Origin: Acidimicrobiales bacterium
GTDB lineage: Bacteria; Actinomycetota; Acidimicrobiia; Acidimicrobiales; SKKL01
DNA: 64,000 nt
Direction of reading: 5' to 3'
NCBI GenBank assembly: GCA_034521975.1
Contig: JAXHLR010000004.1
Coordinates: 396,165 to 460,164 of the forward strand
Each line of letters begins with the position of its first letter. The stretch's first letter is position 1. Positions 1,945-63,450 of this stretch are shown piece by piece. The position numbers and the translations under genes are program-made. Under the pieces are notes generated by a model. That model worked only from the letters and a program-made list of their open reading frames with translations, was not told the DNA's origin and searched no databases.

Positions 1945-4944
<3,000 letters not shown>

Positions 4945-7530: not shown

Positions 7531-8802
7531 ATGGATGCAGCAGCGCTGGCCAGGGTCACCGACACGGTGGCGGCGATCGATGTCGACGCGCTCGAGCCGC
7601 GCCATGCCGAAGACCTGACGGCCGCTGCGGCCCGCCTCTCCCACGCTGCGGGGGCCCTCGCCGCCCGGTCCGCCCGGCGGGTGGGCCAGACCGGTGCGCA
7701 CCGTCGATGCGGCGATCGCACCGAAGCCCACCACCTCGCCCGGGTCTCGGGAGTGGGGCTTGGCGCAGCGAAGACCGCCCTCGACGTCGTCGGCGCCACC
7801 GATCAGCTGGCGGCCACGGATGAGGCGTACCGAGCCGGTGAGGTGTCGCTGCGTCAGGCCGCGGCCATCTGCGGTGCCGCGCTGGTCGACCGGCGAGCCG
7901 AGTCGCGCCTGCTCCGCATCGCCACGACGCGAGGCATCGGCCAGCTCGAAGAGGAGTGCGCCCGGGTGCGGGCTGCTGCGGCTCCCGACGACGAAGCCGA
8001 ACGCCATCGGCGGGCTCGCCGCGAACGGGGTGCGTGGAAGCACCAGAACCACGACGGCTCGGCCGAGATCCGATTCCGGTCCTCGACCGAGGACGTCGCC
8101 GAGGTCTGGGCGGTGGTGTCGGCCTACCGCGACCGGCTCTTCCGTTCCGGCGGGGCCGACAGCTCGACCGGCGAGCGACCAAGCTTCGACCAGCGCAGCG
8201 CCGACGCGTTCCTCGACATGGCTCGAGCCGCGGCCAACGGGAGCGTGCTCACCCCCGCGACCCAGCCGAGCCTCGACCTCGACGGCCTGGAACCCATCCG
8301 CCCCGGGGTCAACGTCGCGAAGGTCATCGTCCGAGTCGACCTCGCCACCCTTCTGCGTGGCTACCCCACCGGTGACGAGGTGTGCGACATCCCAGGCCAT
8401 GGCCCCATCCCGGTCGCCGCGCTGCGCGACATGCTCGCGACCGGCAACCCGATCCTCGCCGCGGTCGTCACCAAGGGGGTCGACGTGGCCACGGTGGCCC
8501 ACCTCGGGCGCGACCCCACCGCCCACCAGCGCACGGCCCTCGAGTGGCTGAACCCACGGTGTCGAGCCGAAGGGTGCGACCGCACGATGGGCCTCGAGAT
8601 CGACCACCGCATCGACTGGGCCCCGACCGAGGTCACCCTGTTGGGCTGGTTGGAGTGGCTCTGCACACACCACCACGGCCTCAAGACCTCGAAGGGCTGG
8701 CGCCTCGTCCACGGCAAGGGGATCCGAGCCTTCGTCCCACCCGACGACCCGAGGCATCCCAACCAGGCCCGCAGCACCAGCACCAGCACCAGCACCAGCT
8801 GA
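7531..8802 (+). CDS. DUF222 / HNH endonuclease-domain protein (13E12-repeat type)
   Basis: A 423-residue member of the abundant actinobacterial DUF222-HNH family. An alpha-helical DUF222 region covers roughly residues 1-330, and the C-terminal HNH motif has CRAEGCD, then EIDHRIDW and CTHHHGLKTSKGW, so the Cys pair and the catalytic His residues are present. The chain ends in repeated Ser-Thr pairs encoded by AGCACC units. Members are multi-copy and of unknown biological role; nuclease activity is inferred from the motif. It stands alone between rimP and a convergent methyltransferase pseudogene. A CATACT hexamer six bases before the ATG suggests leaderless transcription. Confidence 0.88.
   Translation: MDAAALARVTDTVAAIDVDALEPRHAEDLTAAAARLSHAAGALAARSARRVGQTGAHRRCGDRTEAHHLARVSGVGLGAAKTALDVVGATDQLAATDEAYRAGEVSLRQAAAICGAALVDRRAESRLLRIATTRGIGQLEEECARVRAAAAPDDEAERHRRARRERGAWKHQNHDGSAEIRFRSSTEDVAEVWAVVSAYRDRLFRSGGADSSTGERPSFDQRSADAFLDMARAAANGSVLTPATQPSLDLDGLEPIRPGVNVAKVIVRVDLATLLRGYPTGDEVCDIPGHGPIPVAALRDMLATGNPILAAVVTKGVDVATVAHLGRDPTAHQRTALEWLNPRCRAEGCDRTMGLEIDHRIDWAPTEVTLLGWLEWLCTHHHGLKTSKGWRLVHGKGIRAFVPPDDPRHPNQARSTSTSTSTS
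8773..8796 (+). repeat. Four AGCACC units at the 3' end of the HNH gene
   Basis: Four perfect AGCACC hexamers encode Ser-Thr dipeptides immediately before the final AGC TGA. The repeat is in frame and only extends the C-terminal tail. Confidence 0.9.
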
Positions 8803-8863
8803 CGAGCGTGGTCCGCAGCGGAGCAGCCCGGTTCGGCCGGTGCTTCGCGCGCCTCGTTCCGAG

Positions 8864-9625
8864 TCAGCCTTCGATGGAGGCGGCGACCAGCAGCACGAGT
8901 GGCACTCGACGCCGACGTTCGAGCTCGGCACCGTCATCGGCGAGCAGGGCAGGAGAGGGCTCGCACTCCCGGACGCCATCGAGCCGGAACCCCACGTCGA
9001 TGAGGACACGCAGGTAGTCCTCGACGGTGCGGTGGTGCCAGACCACCGTCGATCCGAACCACGGCCGCTCGCGGGGACCGCGCACGAAGGAGTCGTCGAC
9101 GGTCCAGTCGGCCCGGCGACCGTGCCCTCGTCCTTCGTTCGAAGTGATGACCGGATAGCACACCGAGAACACGAACCGACCACCTGGACCGAGCGATCGG
9201 CGCACGCTCGCGACCGCGTCCTCGAGGTCAGCCACGTAGTGCAGCGCCATCCTCGACAGCACGAGGTCGAACGTGCCGAGCGAGGTGCCGAGCTAGGTGC
9301 TGAGCTCGGTGCTGAGCTCTTCGATCGCGATCCGCCAGAAGTCCACACCGTCGGCTGCATGCTGAACACGCGCCAGCTCGACCATCGCCATCGAGGCGTC
9401 GATGCCCACATAGCGGGCCGCACCCAGCTGTCTCACCAGCGGTGCCGTCGATCCATCGCCGCTCCCCAGGTCGAGGACGGGCGAGCCGGACAGATCGCCG
9501 AGCATCTCGACGAGGTTCGGCTGTTCCATCACCACGTTGGGACTCGACGCTCCCCCGTGTCGATGTCGCAGGTAGGCCGCCCGCGAGCTTGCATCGTCGT
9601 AGAACTCCTCGGCCGTGCTGGTCAC
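8864..9625 (-). pseudogene. Class I SAM-dependent methyltransferase interrupted by an in-frame TAG
   Basis: Reading from a GTG at 9625 (AAGGAGG seven bases upstream) gives a small-molecule-type methyltransferase with LDLGSGDGS (SAM-binding motif I) followed by YVGIDAS, then a TAG at 9295-9293. The same frame then continues with FDLVLSRMALHYV and LGPGGRFVFSVCYP, the expected second half of the fold. Without the stop it would be 253 codons. The TAG lies in the third unit of a 12-bp tandem repeat, so repeat expansion plus a G-to-T change (GAG to TAG) explains the break. The first 110 codons alone would lack the rest of the fold. Substrate unknown. Confidence 0.8.
9272..9319 (-). repeat. Four 12-bp tandem units containing the amber codon
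   Basis: Read on the minus strand: GAGCTCAGCACC twice, then TAGCTCGGCACC, then TCGCTCGGCACG. These encode ELST, ELST, stop-LGT and SLGT, after which the conserved FDLVLS block resumes in the same frame. The unit length keeps the frame, so only the GAG-to-TAG change interrupts translation. Confidence 0.92.
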
Positions 9626-59372: not shown

Positions 59373-59758
59373 TCAGGTCCCCGGCGTGGAGCCGCCGGCG
59401 ACCTCGTAGGACCACAGCTCCGCCGATCATGGCGACCGGGGCCTCTCCCCCGCCGTGGCCTCCACCGGGATGCCGCCCGGTGCCCACCGCCGCCCGACTC
59501 GCCGGAACCGGACGACTCACCGCGGTGGCCGTGGGCGAACGCCGGGCGAGTTGACCCAGGCCTCGAAGGACTCCTCGTCGCGCCAGCGGGTGATGACCAG
59601 CCAGGTGGTGCGGTCGTCGGTCGGCTTCAACAGCTCGAAGCCCTCGAAGCCGGGCTGGTCGTCCACCGCTCCGGCGCGGGCGGCGAAGCGCTTGGCCAGC
59701 TCGTCGCCGCTGTCGGCGGGCACGGTGATGGCGTTGATCTTGATGACGTGGAACCCAT
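59373..59758 (-). pseudogene. ABM-type (haem-degrading MhuD/HmoA-like) monooxygenase with several frameshifts
   Basis: The clearest part, in one frame, is FHVIKINAITVPADSGDELA followed by AGAVDDQPGFEGFELLKP and WLVITRWRDEESFEAWVNSP, closely matching antibiotic-biosynthesis-monooxygenase folds that degrade haem. The likely start is an ATG at 59758 (GAGG upstream), out of frame by one missing base. After NSP the expected AFAHGHRGE is in the next frame, EAPVA in a third, and AELWSYEVAGGSTPGT-stop back in the first. At least four indels in 390 bp break it. Restored, it would be about 125 residues. It heads a small group with the membrane pseudogene. Confidence 0.65.
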
Positions 59759-59809
59759 GTCGTCGGTCCTCGGGTCGGGTCTGGGCAGCTCTTCCACAGT
59801 AGGACGATC

Positions 59810-60418
59810 TCAACGGGCCCATGCCACCAGTGAGAACCGGCATCCCTCGAACCCCTGGCCCGGCTCCATGGTCACCTCGCTCACCTCGTGCAGCGTGGCG
59901 CTGTGGAACAGCACGAGCCGATTGTCGAGTGCCTCGACCACGGTGATGTCATCCTCGGTCCACGCCGCCGGGGTCGCCCCGTCGATCTCGGGGGAGTACA
60001 CCCGCAGCTCGCCACCGCGGAACGCCGGTGGGTGGCGGTGCAGGAACCAGACCGCTGAGATCTTGCGGGCTCCCTCCGCACCGGCGTCTCGCTCATCGAG
60101 GTGAGGTCGGTAGTAGCAACCCGACGACGACGCGGTCACGATGAGCTGGATCGACTGCAAGGTGGAGGCATCGATGTCGAACACCTCGGCCTGGGCTTCG
60201 ATCTCGGCACACAACAGCCCGAGGAACGCCGACTCGAGCTCACCGAGCCGGGCCGAGTCGAGCACGAGGGCATGACGCTGCGCCGAGGGGCCGCCCCGAG
60301 TGTTGCCCCAGACGAACTCTGCCTCGCAGGCGGTCACGCGTGCGAACAGGGCGTCGCGCAGATGAGCGGGAAGGAAGTGGTCGCGCACCAACAGACCTGA
60401 CCTGTCGCTCACACCCAC
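59810..60418 (-). CDS. 2OG-Fe(II) oxygenase, prolyl-4-hydroxylase-like
   Basis: A 202-residue non-haem iron dioxygenase. The metal triad is His106, Asp108 (CYYRPHLDERD) and His177 (FHSATLHEV); Arg194 in GCRFSLVAW would bind 2-oxoglutarate. Fold text AVWFLHRHPPAFRGGELRVY is typical of the P4H/SM-20 group, which hydroxylates prolyl or other protein residues. GTG at 60418 is preferred since GGGAGG lies eight bases upstream; a second GTG at 60412 is possible. It follows the tfuA-like gene after 43 bp in the same direction, so it is likely a tailoring enzyme of the YcaO cluster. Confidence 0.83.
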   Translation of the reverse strand: MGVSDRSGLLVRDHFLPAHLRDALFARVTACEAEFVWGNTRGGPSAQRHALVLDSARLGELESAFLGLLCAEIEAQAEVFDIDASTLQSIQLIVTASSSGCYYRPHLDERDAGAEGARKISAVWFLHRHPPAFRGGELRVYSPEIDGATPAAWTEDDITVVEALDNRLVLFHSATLHEVSEVTMEPGQGFEGCRFSLVAWAR

Positions 60419-60461
60419 GAGTGCCGCCCTCCCACGCCGCCGGGACGACCGGTCGTCGCGG

Positions 60462-61817
60462 TCATCCCGACGATCGGTAGACGTGCTCACGGCGCAGAGC
60501 TTGGATGAATGTCGCACGGTCGCCGAGCTGGTGTTCCAGGAGGTGCTGATCCAGGTCGCAGGGCACGGATCCTCCCCACTCCTCTTCGAACCACCACCTG
60601 AGCAGGTCCTCATCCGAGACCACCTCGCCGCCGTGGAGACCATCGGCGGTCCACGATGGGCCCAACACCTCGTGCTTCTCGCGGGCGCGCTGGAGCAGGG
60701 ACCCGTAGCGGCGGGAGCCGCGGAGCACGTCGATGGCGATCGGGTCCAGCTCGAGTCGCGACTTGGCGCGAGCCCACGCCACGAACGCCTCATCTCGCAC
60801 CTGGGTCCGCAGGTTCGCGGGTGTCATCTCCTCCTCGGCGAGCCAGGTCTCCACATCCGAGGGCTCGAGCAGGCCCATCCGGGCTCGCATCTGGTCGAGG
60901 ACCGCCTGTGTCTCCTCCGGGCGCAGCTCCAGCGAGCGAGCCTGGGCGTAGGCTCCTGCCAACCAGCGCACGAAGGCGTCGTCAAAGACCTGGCGGTGCT
61001 CGTCGGGGCGGAGGCGCAGCTCATCGAGCACCCGCTGCATGTCGCCGCCGGTGGGCCGTGCCGAGCTGGCGGACTGATCGGTGATGATCTCCTGCAGGGC
61101 ACGCTCCCAGAACGTCGTGTGCTCGAAGCTCCAGGTCACCGTCGGAGGTCGAGCTCCGTTCGTCAACCATCCATGCACCTCGCCGAGGAGCTCGCGGGCG
61201 TCGTCGGCCTTGAGGTCGATGGACCCCTCGGCCAACCAGGCCTCGAGCCGTCCGACCGATGCGTCACTGAGCGCGCCGCTGGAGCGGATCGTGCCGACGA
61301 TGCCCGACCAGGTCCGATCGGTGTAGTGGAGCGACTTGGCGAGGTCGATCGAGGTCGCGGCGTCGTGCTCGTCGAGCGTTCCTGCCGCGACGGCTCGGTC
61401 GAGGGTCGCCCGGACGTTGACCATGGCCACGGTGACGGGCCGGAACTCATCATCTGGGCCGAGATGAGCGACCGCGACCTCGTCGTCGTCCTCCAACCAG
61501 CCCGAACGGAACCAGTCATAGACCCGTCCCACGCCGACCATGCCGAAGGGCTCGAGCTCGGCGGCGCGCAGCGCGCCCATGCTGGCCGCCCCGAAGAGCG
61601 CGACGCCCTCGTTCATGGCCCACAGCAACTCCTTGTGCCACGGCGAGGGGACCCGTTCGAAGTAACCGTCGATCATGGCGATCGCCCGAGGTCGGGACTG
61701 AACGGCGCGATACACATCGCCGAGTGCCGCCGGCGGCCGGACCTCGGCACCAGGAAATCGGCGGCTGACCTCGTCTGCCCGCAACGTCGGACCGGTGAAG
61801 ACGATGACATCGCTCAT
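60462..61817 (-). CDS. TfuA-like protein, YcaO partner
   Basis: A 451-residue protein with the TfuA core in its first 150 residues: VIVFTGPTL, AIAMIDGYFERVPSPWHKELL, ALFGAASMGALRAAEL and GVGRVYDWF with DDDEVAV. TfuA proteins partner YcaO enzymes; in thioviridamide-type and methanogen systems the pair makes backbone thioamides, TfuA probably helping deliver sulfur. The C-terminal 300 residues are helical and charged, without a recognised domain; WSFEHTTFWERALQEII recurs in no family I know. The ATG overlaps the ycaO stop by 4 bp, so the two are translated together. Confidence 0.88.
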   Translation of the reverse strand: MSDVIVFTGPTLRADEVSRRFPGAEVRPPAALGDVYRAVQSRPRAIAMIDGYFERVPSPWHKELLWAMNEGVALFGAASMGALRAAELEPFGMVGVGRVYDWFRSGWLEDDDEVAVAHLGPDDEFRPVTVAMVNVRATLDRAVAAGTLDEHDAATSIDLAKSLHYTDRTWSGIVGTIRSSGALSDASVGRLEAWLAEGSIDLKADDARELLGEVHGWLTNGARPPTVTWSFEHTTFWERALQEIITDQSASSARPTGGDMQRVLDELRLRPDEHRQVFDDAFVRWLAGAYAQARSLELRPEETQAVLDQMRARMGLLEPSDVETWLAEEEMTPANLRTQVRDEAFVAWARAKSRLELDPIAIDVLRGSRRYGSLLQRAREKHEVLGPSWTADGLHGGEVVSDEDLLRWWFEEEWGGSVPCDLDQHLLEHQLGDRATFIQALRREHVYRSSG

Positions 61818-63133
61818 GCGGGACGACCTCTGTCGATCGCGGCCTGGGCCCGTGGACCGGGTCGGTACTGCTGGGAGCCCGGTCCCCGATGCTCCAGATC
61901 GGGCACGACGACCTTGTAGACGGGAATCGAATGCTGATGTTGAGTGAGGTCGATCGTGACGACCTCGTCGAGACCCCTGGCGGTGAGCAATCGGACGATC
62001 AGCTCCACGTCGCCCTCCAGCGAGTCGGTCGCATGGCTAGGAAGATCGGCGAACGATCGCGGGGTCGGCTCGTCGAGCAACCTACGCTGGTAGGCACGGC
62101 TCTCGGACCCGGTCGAGCGGGCATAGTCGCGGTAGAGGTAGTCGTCGCGCGAGCCGACGATGAGGGTCAGGCGACTCTGGGCGGCCTCGGTCAACGCCCG
62201 GGAGAACGCGATCGCACTCGAGGGATGGCAACCGTGGCCGGCACCGACGGGTAGCGGGCGCCACGGGTTGGGCTCACGGTCGAAGAGCTCGCAGGTGACC
62301 GACGGGAGCCCGATGTCGGTGGTCGTGTCCCATGCGGCGACCGCGACTCCCGCCTCGTCGCATCGCCGCAACAGCGCCCGGCAGTCCGGGTCGGCAACAG
62401 TGTCGAGCGCGATCCGGCGGGCGGCGCGTCGGGAATCGGAGCCCATCTCGAACAGGGTGGTCGAGTCCCGCTCGATGACCTCGCAGAGCCCGTGGCTGAT
62501 CGCTTCGAGGGGGTGGTTGCCCGACGCGAGGCCGTTGGAGGTGGTGATGAAGCAGCCCGCCCCGGGGAACTTGGGGAAGCTGCAGTCCGTGGACACCACC
62601 TCTTCGGGAACCCACACCGGATCGCCGCTCACGATGTCGACGCCTTCTGCCCACAGGATCTGGAGCCCTCGATCGAACTTGCCGCCGATCGCCTTGGGCA
62701 GCCGGTCGATCTGGAGCATCCGTGCGCGAGACAGGACCTCGTTGGCGCTGGCCCGCCACAGTTGCCCGTCCATGTGCTCGGCATGCCAGAGCTCGATGCA
62801 CTCCATCACACCCGACGCCTTGGCGGCGTCGAGGGTGAGGCCCTTGCCCTGGGAGACCGACAGGCCCCGGGAGTTGGGGCGGACGACCATCACGACGGGG
62901 ATGCCGATGATGTCGAGCCCGGTCACGTTGGCGACGCGGGTGATTCCGAAGGCGTCGAAGCGTTCGCGGACCCATGCCACGGTCTCGTCGGGCGGACGCA
63001 CCCGGTGGGTTCCGTGCACCGTGGTCTTTCCGGCGGTGCCGAACCGTTCCACCAGAGCATCGACGCCCGGCGGCCGGGCCGCCCCGGGCGAGCGAGGCTC
63101 GTCCCGGAGCGACCCGATCAGCACCTCGGTCAT
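61814..63133 (-). CDS. YcaO-domain protein (ATP-dependent backbone amide activation)
   Basis: A 439-residue YcaO enzyme, which uses ATP to phosphorylate a backbone amide oxygen and enable azoline, amidine or thioamide formation. ATP-binding blocks are SQGKGLTLDAAKASG (about 94-108) with MECIE and SNGLASGN followed by EAISHGLCEVIERD (about 199-223). No E1-like or flavin dehydrogenase domain is fused. It overlaps the small upstream gene by 4 bp and the tfuA-like gene by 4 bp. Standing with TfuA but without a cyclodehydratase partner, thioamidation is the best inference. Substrate likely the adjacent 106-residue protein. Confidence 0.92.
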   Translation of the reverse strand: MTEVLIGSLRDEPRSPGAARPPGVDALVERFGTAGKTTVHGTHRVRPPDETVAWVRERFDAFGITRVANVTGLDIIGIPVVMVVRPNSRGLSVSQGKGLTLDAAKASGVMECIELWHAEHMDGQLWRASANEVLSRARMLQIDRLPKAIGGKFDRGLQILWAEGVDIVSGDPVWVPEEVVSTDCSFPKFPGAGCFITTSNGLASGNHPLEAISHGLCEVIERDSTTLFEMGSDSRRAARRIALDTVADPDCRALLRRCDEAGVAVAAWDTTTDIGLPSVTCELFDREPNPWRPLPVGAGHGCHPSSAIAFSRALTEAAQSRLTLIVGSRDDYLYRDYARSTGSESRAYQRRLLDEPTPRSFADLPSHATDSLEGDVELIVRLLTARGLDEVVTIDLTQHQHSIPVYKVVVPDLEHRGPGSQQYRPGPRAQAAIDRGRPA

Positions 63134-63450
63134 CGCCGGAAGTACTGAAGCGATGACGAGTCGACATCGGTCGGCTCGTCGCCGACACCGGCGGAGACGG
63201 GCAGCGATCCGAACGGCCCGGTCATGGCCTTCATCGGCTGAAAGATGTCGGATGGGAACGACGTCTGGGAGATGGTGCGGTTGAAGTCGAAGCCGGAGAC
63301 CTCGTCGTCGGCGAAGGCCTCTCGTGCCACATCTGCACCTTCGCCTTCCACCTTGTAGTTCTGGAGGATCTCGTTGGGGATGAAGTACACCTCTCCCCCT
63401 CCCCCCTGGATGAGGGCTCCTTCGACCGACTTGCGTTCTTCACTGGCCAT
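63130..63450 (-). CDS. Small cysteine-free protein, candidate YcaO/TfuA substrate (precursor)
   Basis: A 106-residue protein starting MASEERKSVEGALIQGGGGE with GAGGAG six bases before the ATG. It has no cysteine. The first 50 residues (GGGGEVYFIPNEIL, then EGEGADVAREAFADDE) are acidic and leader-like; the second half (TSFPSDIFQPMKAMTG and GPFGSLPVSAGVG) has repeated Xaa-Pro pairs and Ser/Thr, then DEPTDVDSSSLQYFRR. Its stop overlaps ycaO by 4 bp. Size and position fit a RiPP precursor or a protein substrate; the lack of Cys excludes thiazole formation. Function is inferred only from context. Confidence 0.68.
   Translation of the reverse strand: MASEERKSVEGALIQGGGGEVYFIPNEILQNYKVEGEGADVAREAFADDEVSGFDFNRTISQTSFPSDIFQPMKAMTGPFGSLPVSAGVGDEPTDVDSSSLQYFRR

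Follow-up and report, generated by a model that had tools for sequence, protein, structure and literature searches.

The window, a stretch of 64,000 nucleotides from an Acidimicrobiales bacterium (contig JAXHLR010000004.1), carries close to its end four genes on the minus strand that are centred on a YcaO-TfuA pair and start with a small gene, here called S, a candidate precursor of a ribosomally synthesized and post-translationally modified peptide (RiPP). A first-pass annotation, made from the sequence alone, had described a small protein gene, ycaO and tfuA coupled by 4-bp overlaps, with a 2-oxoglutarate (2OG)-Fe(II) oxygenase gene 43 bp further on, and this gene set is borne out by the coordinates and by the Pfam matches:

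63130..63450, minus strand: S, candidate RiPP precursor, 106 aa, ATG start (open reading frame (ORF) preceded by a GGAG at a distance of 6 nt; ORFs related to it next to ycaO in loci of other phyla)
63310..63426, minus strand: putative leader part of S, approximately residues 9-47 (column conservation in 22 S proteins; hairpin and two helices in the AlphaFold model)
63133..63309, minus strand: candidate core part of S, approximately residues 48-106 (low predicted local distance difference test score (pLDDT), 45-53; similarity to the congener within shuffles)
63130..63133, minus strand: ATGA overlap of S and ycaO (sequence)
61814..63133, minus strand: ycaO, 439 aa, predicted ATP-dependent backbone amide activation (PF02624; TIGR03266 below cut-off)
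61814..61817, minus strand: ATGA overlap of ycaO and tfuA (sequence)
60462..61817, minus strand: tfuA, long form, 451 aa (PF07812; model fit to 6xp8)
59810..60418, minus strand: 2OG-Fe(II) oxygenase, accessory enzyme, 202 aa (PF13640; H-x-D, distal H and R)

The small precursor-like gene of the operon is S, with 106 aa and an ATGA-coupled downstream neighbour, and its GGAG is found at 63460-63457. YcaO proteins activate backbone amides with ATP, and YcaO-TfuA pairs form thioamides in RiPPs of the thioviridamide type and in methanogen McrA. The YcaO of the window matches PF02624 with 262 bits (cut-off 25.7) and shares the invariant residues with seven relatives, and its best NCBIfam score is to TIGR03266, with 220 bits below the cut-off of 365. 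TfuA matches PF07812 with 150 bits (cut-off 30), and best among the NCBIfam models NF033432 with 192 bits (cut-off 235). The TfuA domain constitutes approximately residues 1-221, and the model (36 rows, mean pLDDT 89) can be superimposed on the solved TfuA 6xp8 over 217 residues with a root mean square deviation of 1.4 Å and a Z score of 31.6; S79, K62 and K203, candidates for the published Ser-Lys pair, are among the residues that are invariant in 36 TfuA proteins. The C-terminal part, residues 222-451, is helical, and these 230 residues have no Pfam family and no structural match of their own among the matches listed, which were all taken by the one domain. Among L017-L096 there are 37 TfuA proteins of at least 415 aa, and proteins below 300 aa also number 37, counted over all loci. 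With a YcaO domain above cut-off and a neighbouring protein with the TfuA fold, the pair fits the thioamidation type. The genome contains a single YcaO and a single TfuA, and three loci of the ThiS family that are candidate sulfur donors.

Neither Pfam nor NCBIfam has a match to window S at E ≤ 1, and when S-type relatives were compared with these databases (nine with Pfam, 13 with NCBIfam) the sole match above cut-off was Big_2, located in an N-terminal extension of the L027 protein. A Foldseek search with the S model gave no match at E ≤ 0.001, and tblastn against plasmids at E ≤ 0.01 gave none for either Fodinibius S or window S. The relatives share a motif, L-I-x-G-x-D-G-x-L-Y-x-I, which in the window reads LIQGGGGEVYFI. 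In the alignment of 22 S proteins, 21 have G at position 19, all have an aromatic residue at position 22, and 17 have D at position 18. The AlphaFold model built on these 22 rows has a mean pLDDT of 67 and a predicted template modelling score of 0.36, with good block means (78-94) for residues 1-50, where a hairpin and two helices extend up to residue 47, and with low confidence (blocks of 45-53) beyond, where a helix is modelled at 98-105. Window S can be aligned over residues 9-73 to the S protein of a genome of the same genus, G089, with 32% identity (E 2e-9) and a score above that of all 2000 shuffles. For the part after residue 47, 140 of 2000 shuffles scored as high against G089 S and 213 of 2000 against Fodinibius S. 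Judged from the columns of the 22 rows and from this lack of similarity above shuffles, S appears to consist of a conserved leader and a variable core. In L046, L041, L094 and L088 the C-terminal part is filled by tandem repeats. At L088, positions 8190-9125, one protein apparently combines an N-terminal part that by eye is C10-like with an S-type leader and an extended array of RGAMAA/QGAMAA repeats.

The occurrence of S was followed in 93 YcaO loci, made up of 80 from the genome_contigs database (the best 80 of 524 candidates that passed with the YcaO alignment A1), seven from plasmids, five distant loci of the own phylum, and the window. The best 80 have 41-51% YcaO identity and belong to Myxococcota (or genera of it), Proteobacteria, Balneolota (Fodinibius), Chloroflexi, Acidobacteria, Verrucomicrobia and one metagenome-assembled genome (MAG) of Bacillota. 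Scans with a single YcaO protein gave no confirmed locus in genome_contigs or viral_contigs, and alignment A1 found none in viral_contigs. A profile made from 19 N-terminal stretches was searched against 25,153 ORFs from these loci, and an ORF was called S-type if it was located on the strand of ycaO, between 1.2 kb ahead of the ycaO start and 5 kb beyond it, with a domain E below 10. Such an ORF is present in 43 loci, in most cases with E < 1e-4. Outside the positional filter there was a second S copy in L021 (E 1.1e-4), and the others were at chance level (E ≥ 8). Inspection by eye of 18 further loci revealed an S-like ORF in eight (L024, L030, L033, L038, L043, L052, L061 and L089) and none in ten. 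The co-occurrence with homologous genes that the first-pass annotation had proposed as a check thus holds for 43 of the 93 loci with the profile and for eight others on inspection. The second copy of L021 lies about 2.2 kb before ycaO, and this locus also contains a short YcaO-like piece at 3015-3101 (29 residues, 83%). A small ORF before ycaO in L051 (9526-9804) has TDRTPAGQP repeats and lacks the S motif.

The seeds were drawn from the same 93 loci, and the search was therefore repeated with groups of seeds held out. All 19 listed matches for the group consisting of the window, Balneolota, Acidobacteriota and congener seeds were in other loci, as were all eight for the Myxococcota-type seeds, where L022, L023 and L032 are themselves Myxococcota, and the five listed for the Azospirillum seeds were all outside the whole Azospirillum set. 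Every listed match is on the strand of ycaO, either 156-304 nt before the projected ycaO start or downstream, namely just past tfuA in L082 and beyond the C4 gene (see below) in L088. S-type ORFs at the same position in other phyla indicate that the gene arrangement is above chance. A profile of 22 S rows (A4) gave 18 matches (E ≤ 0.01) in 17 of the 20 whole genomes or records behind the loci, all 18 with YcaO in the same short locus; as the rows come partly from these genomes the recovery itself proves nothing, and the point is the lack of other matches. A4 missed S-like ORFs at the YcaO loci in the genomes of L024, L028 and L033.

In 193 Myxococcota genomes A4 gave nine matches (E ≤ 0.001). 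Five of them, L134, L139, L140, L141 (the known L023) and L142, adjoin YcaO. In L143-L145 the S protein has a double domain and is encoded about 5 kb beyond tfuA and 6.3 kb beyond ycaO, and the ninth, L146, has no YcaO match. The 376 genomes of Acidobacteriota, the phylum of the L041 genome, contain three; one is L041 itself, and the other two, L149 and L150, lack YcaO. The ten newly found matches in these two phyla are thus located beside YcaO in four cases, within 7 kb in three and beside radical-SAM genes in three. Those last three (L146, L149 and L150), which lack YcaO, stand next to B12 radical-SAM genes. L146 (3024-7449) has two RiPP radical-SAM C-methyltransferases of TIGR03975, with 568 and 551 bits (cut-off 282), an S protein with five GSAMSKYAA repeats, and no YcaO match within its 15-kb stretch. 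In L149 (7011-8952) a radical-SAM/B12-binding protein by S scores 67 bits to TIGR03975, below the cut-off, and in L150 a radical-SAM look-alike, judged from its appearance, is beside the S-type leader. S is ruled out as a common protein of the own lineage, being found in two of 198 genomes of the order and one of 376 of the phylum, its own included; two more matches of the S profile are weak (E 0.039 and 0.047), one of them on contig C5 of the genome that contains the window.

The YcaO tree contains 94 rows, 27 of which are in no group, and its S group is made up of 46 loci, the window and L088 among them; the profile identified 43 of these and inspection by eye three. Another family, C4, is found downstream instead in 22 loci, all in one YcaO subclade of 28 rows (branch values 99/84), in which L088 alone gives an S match with the profile. 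Two changes on the tree are sufficient for the S group and two for C4, compared to means of 19.3 and 18.0 for shuffles. Outside the C4 subclade, L014 and the distant rows, S is present in 50 of 59 loci (42 by profile, eight by eye), and for L019, one of the nine without S, the contig holds just 99 bases ahead of the YcaO match. This supports the earlier proposal that S is the substrate of YcaO-TfuA. The C4 protein of L088 (6855-8159) has a HETGH motif, seen by eye, and no match in Pfam or NCBIfam, that of L092 has a Peptidase_M4 match below threshold, and the C4 family downstream of tfuA is perhaps a leader protease. Relatives of the YcaO are scarce in the own lineage as sampled: at E ≤ 1e-30 they occur, with the own genome counted, in two of 198 genomes at class level and in five of 296 at phylum level. 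A common descent of the window YcaO with YcaO genes of its own phylum is rejected, as the tree sets it with two MAG sequences, L053 and L094, both S-bearing (96/78, not starred, with a long end branch of 1.12), and apart from L008-L012.

A TfuA search of 59 relatives found a YcaO-TfuA pair in G039 (39% and 42% identity) and a fused pair in G089. The fused gene of G089 (L104, 9594-11075) is cut by the contig end and is 30% identical over the part present; it is located near HAD and alcohol dehydrogenase genes, and by eye such genes also lie near the window cluster. The S gene of G089 (L105, 5807-6145) lies on a contig of 7.5 kb that has no YcaO, flanked by an apparent dapE and a gene for a hydrolase. 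Genes of a blast cluster encoding kinase/cyclase-AAA-TPR (STAND-like) proteins are present in 37 of the 93 loci, and among the 46 loci with S they are present in 29; the domains were checked for L059, for L004 (a cyclase) and for L017 (a kinase). The gene finder missed the gene of L004, and 37 is therefore a low count. This company suggests that the products may serve some regulated behaviour. Examples of the STAND-like genes are L017 4355-7912 and L059 6882-9947. Crp-type regulators occur in 29 of the 93 loci.

As S belongs to a precursor family beside YcaO-TfuA, the cluster most likely yields a sulfur-containing peptide, and we consider it probable that this is a thioamidated RiPP for which S is the leader-guided precursor. 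Residues 1-47 of S, the hairpin and helices, would be the leader that brings S to YcaO-TfuA, and the C-terminal 59 residues would be or contain the core. YcaO would use ATP to activate a backbone amide in the core, and TfuA would free sulfide from a thiocarboxylate of the ThiS type (ThiS-COSH) to form the thioamide. The 2OG oxygenase might then, in this lineage, hydroxylate a side chain of the core, and the leader would be removed by a protease encoded elsewhere. Release of sulfide from ThiS-COSH is the TfuA mechanism given in excerpts of PMC13185837, and the thioamide chemistry is taken by analogy from the excerpted work (PMC13185837, PMC13174530) on systems other than this organism. We infer for the cluster the thioamide and its site, the hydroxylation, the cleavage and the function of the product. 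Several observations weigh against the proposal. No dedicated leader peptidase or exporter was recognized by eye in a 20-kb stretch around the cluster with a simple gene finder, position 18 of window S is G instead of the D of the motif, the alignment to G089 S continues past the leader to residue 73, and a C-terminus C-x-V/L-L/V-N-L is retained in many Myxococcota S proteins, unlike a variable core. In G089, S is unlinked to its YcaO-TfuA, against a strict linkage, and the oxygenase lacks counterparts as described below. The single matches with held-out seeds are weak (E 5.4e-8 to 3.2), and it is therefore the agreement of their positions that is the evidence.

The oxygenase, with a GTG start (60418) of our choice and an end at 59810, begins 43 bp past the tfuA stop and matches PF13640 (2OG-FeII_Oxy_3) with 53.5 bits (cut-off 27); in an alignment with five relatives the H-x-D, the distal H and the R are kept. 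Whatever S is, there is a little less than an even chance that this gene is an unrelated neighbour after tfuA. A profile of six sequences, which would miss other oxygenase families, finds no relative in the 92 other loci apart from one match of E 0.29 (L059, 5.8 kb from ycaO on the opposite strand), so the oxygenase, which the first-pass annotation counted into the gene set, is ruled out as a standard part of the cluster; its role on S can therefore be no more than inferred, and it would be an addition of the lineage of the window. Identity to the closest relatives recovered is 26-35%, and in four of the five neighbourhoods read no RiPP precursor was recognized, three showing nothing of the kind and one lying near a non-ribosomal peptide synthetase. 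The same strand and the short gap argue for a connection to the cluster, as does the fifth relative, on a Pseudanabaena plasmid, which belongs to a gene run that starts with RiPP precursors of the Nif11 type, with two genes between. The end of the oxygenase gene is overlapped by an ORF at 59517-59843 on the minus strand, a gene with an ABM domain (heme-degrading type).

It is rather unlikely that S is instead a protein substrate kept whole, like McrA or ribosomal protein uL16, in which a thioamide, perhaps in GxDGxLY, tunes what the protein does, signalling together with the STAND-like ATPases near many of the relatives being one example. A confidently modelled N-terminal domain, C-terminal ends that are kept in many relatives, similarity to the congener up to residue 73, kinase/cyclase-AAA-TPR genes at 29 of 46 S loci, the lack of a recognized peptidase nearby, and a top NCBIfam score of YcaO to the McrA-glycine family, although below cut-off, are all consistent with this, but the repeated C-termini and the domain beside a RiPP radical-SAM pair fit a leader better, and after residue 47 the similarity to the S proteins of the congener and Fodinibius stays within shuffles. 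A modified protein that stays intact, earlier offered as a possible product, is thus disfavoured as the outcome, both by the conserved N-terminal part with a variable and sometimes repeated remainder and by the same N-terminal part at L146. That S is a partner or regulator that binds YcaO-TfuA, with the true substrate encoded elsewhere, could account for its place in the operon, for the small folded domain as the sole widely shared part and for the C4-subclade loci, most of which have no S, but is very improbable given the tandem repeats of several S proteins and the occurrence of S beside other RiPP enzymes.

Upstream of the cluster the next gene encodes a LipQ-like esterase (149 bits for the part in the window, cut-off 700), and genes similar to DJ-1/PfpI and beta-lactamases are located about 10 kb or more away. 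Outside the window, 1.7 kb upstream of S, a gene (L097, 6270-7778) encodes a protein of 502 aa with four C-terminal GTYVEDDFAP repeats and no Pfam family.

Taking the leader-guided precursor as the preferred reading, the S family would be a RiPP leader family outside Pfam and NCBIfam, found in six named phyla besides that of the window, common to two unrelated kinds of maturase, YcaO-TfuA and B12 radical-SAM enzymes, and often located near STAND-like kinase or cyclase ATPases, and the evidence slightly favours a class of signal-controlled thioamidated peptides of which the window, with its 2OG oxygenase, would be a variant. Finding precursors is a bottleneck in genome mining for RiPPs; a leader profile that recognizes them next to YcaO-TfuA, and next to some radical-SAM genes, could assign substrates to many orphan clusters, and would make the thioamide prediction testable by reconstitution with two or three genes. 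No description of the S-type leader was found in the excerpts of the literature searched, including PMC8120280, PMC6511847, PMC8939145, PMC4603692, PMC13185837 and PMC13174530. The catalogue of YcaO-TfuA gene cluster families by Malit et al. 2021 (PMC8120280), with Corallococcus among the dominant ones, mentions in the excerpted text CCRG-2, Nif11, thiopeptide and albusnodin-like precursors and not the S leader, a comparison that leaves aside the 797 precursor families of its supplements.

Compared to known systems, the pair that modifies a glycine of McrA in methanogens (TIGR03266/NF033432) gives the best NCBIfam scores of YcaO and TfuA, but both are below the curated cut-offs (220/365 and 192/235 bits) and the TfuA of the window has 230 extra residues, so by sequence the pair does not belong to the McrA thioamidation equivalogs. 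RiPP clusters with radical-SAM C-methyltransferases of TIGR03975 have in one case, the pair of L146, an S-type leader at their side, but differ by another chemistry and by a 15-kb stretch that lacks YcaO. The thioamidated RiPPs, listed in the excerpts of PMC13174530 as thioviridamide-like compounds, thiovarsolins, thioamidated thiopeptides, chimeric lanthipeptides and the std cluster, differ from the window in that S has no family match in Pfam or NCBIfam, in that tailoring would fall to a 2OG-Fe(II) oxygenase, and in that the cluster contains no peptidase or transporter; they have in common with it the same adjacent ycaO and tfuA genes by a small precursor-like gene, and a TfuA similar to 6xp8.

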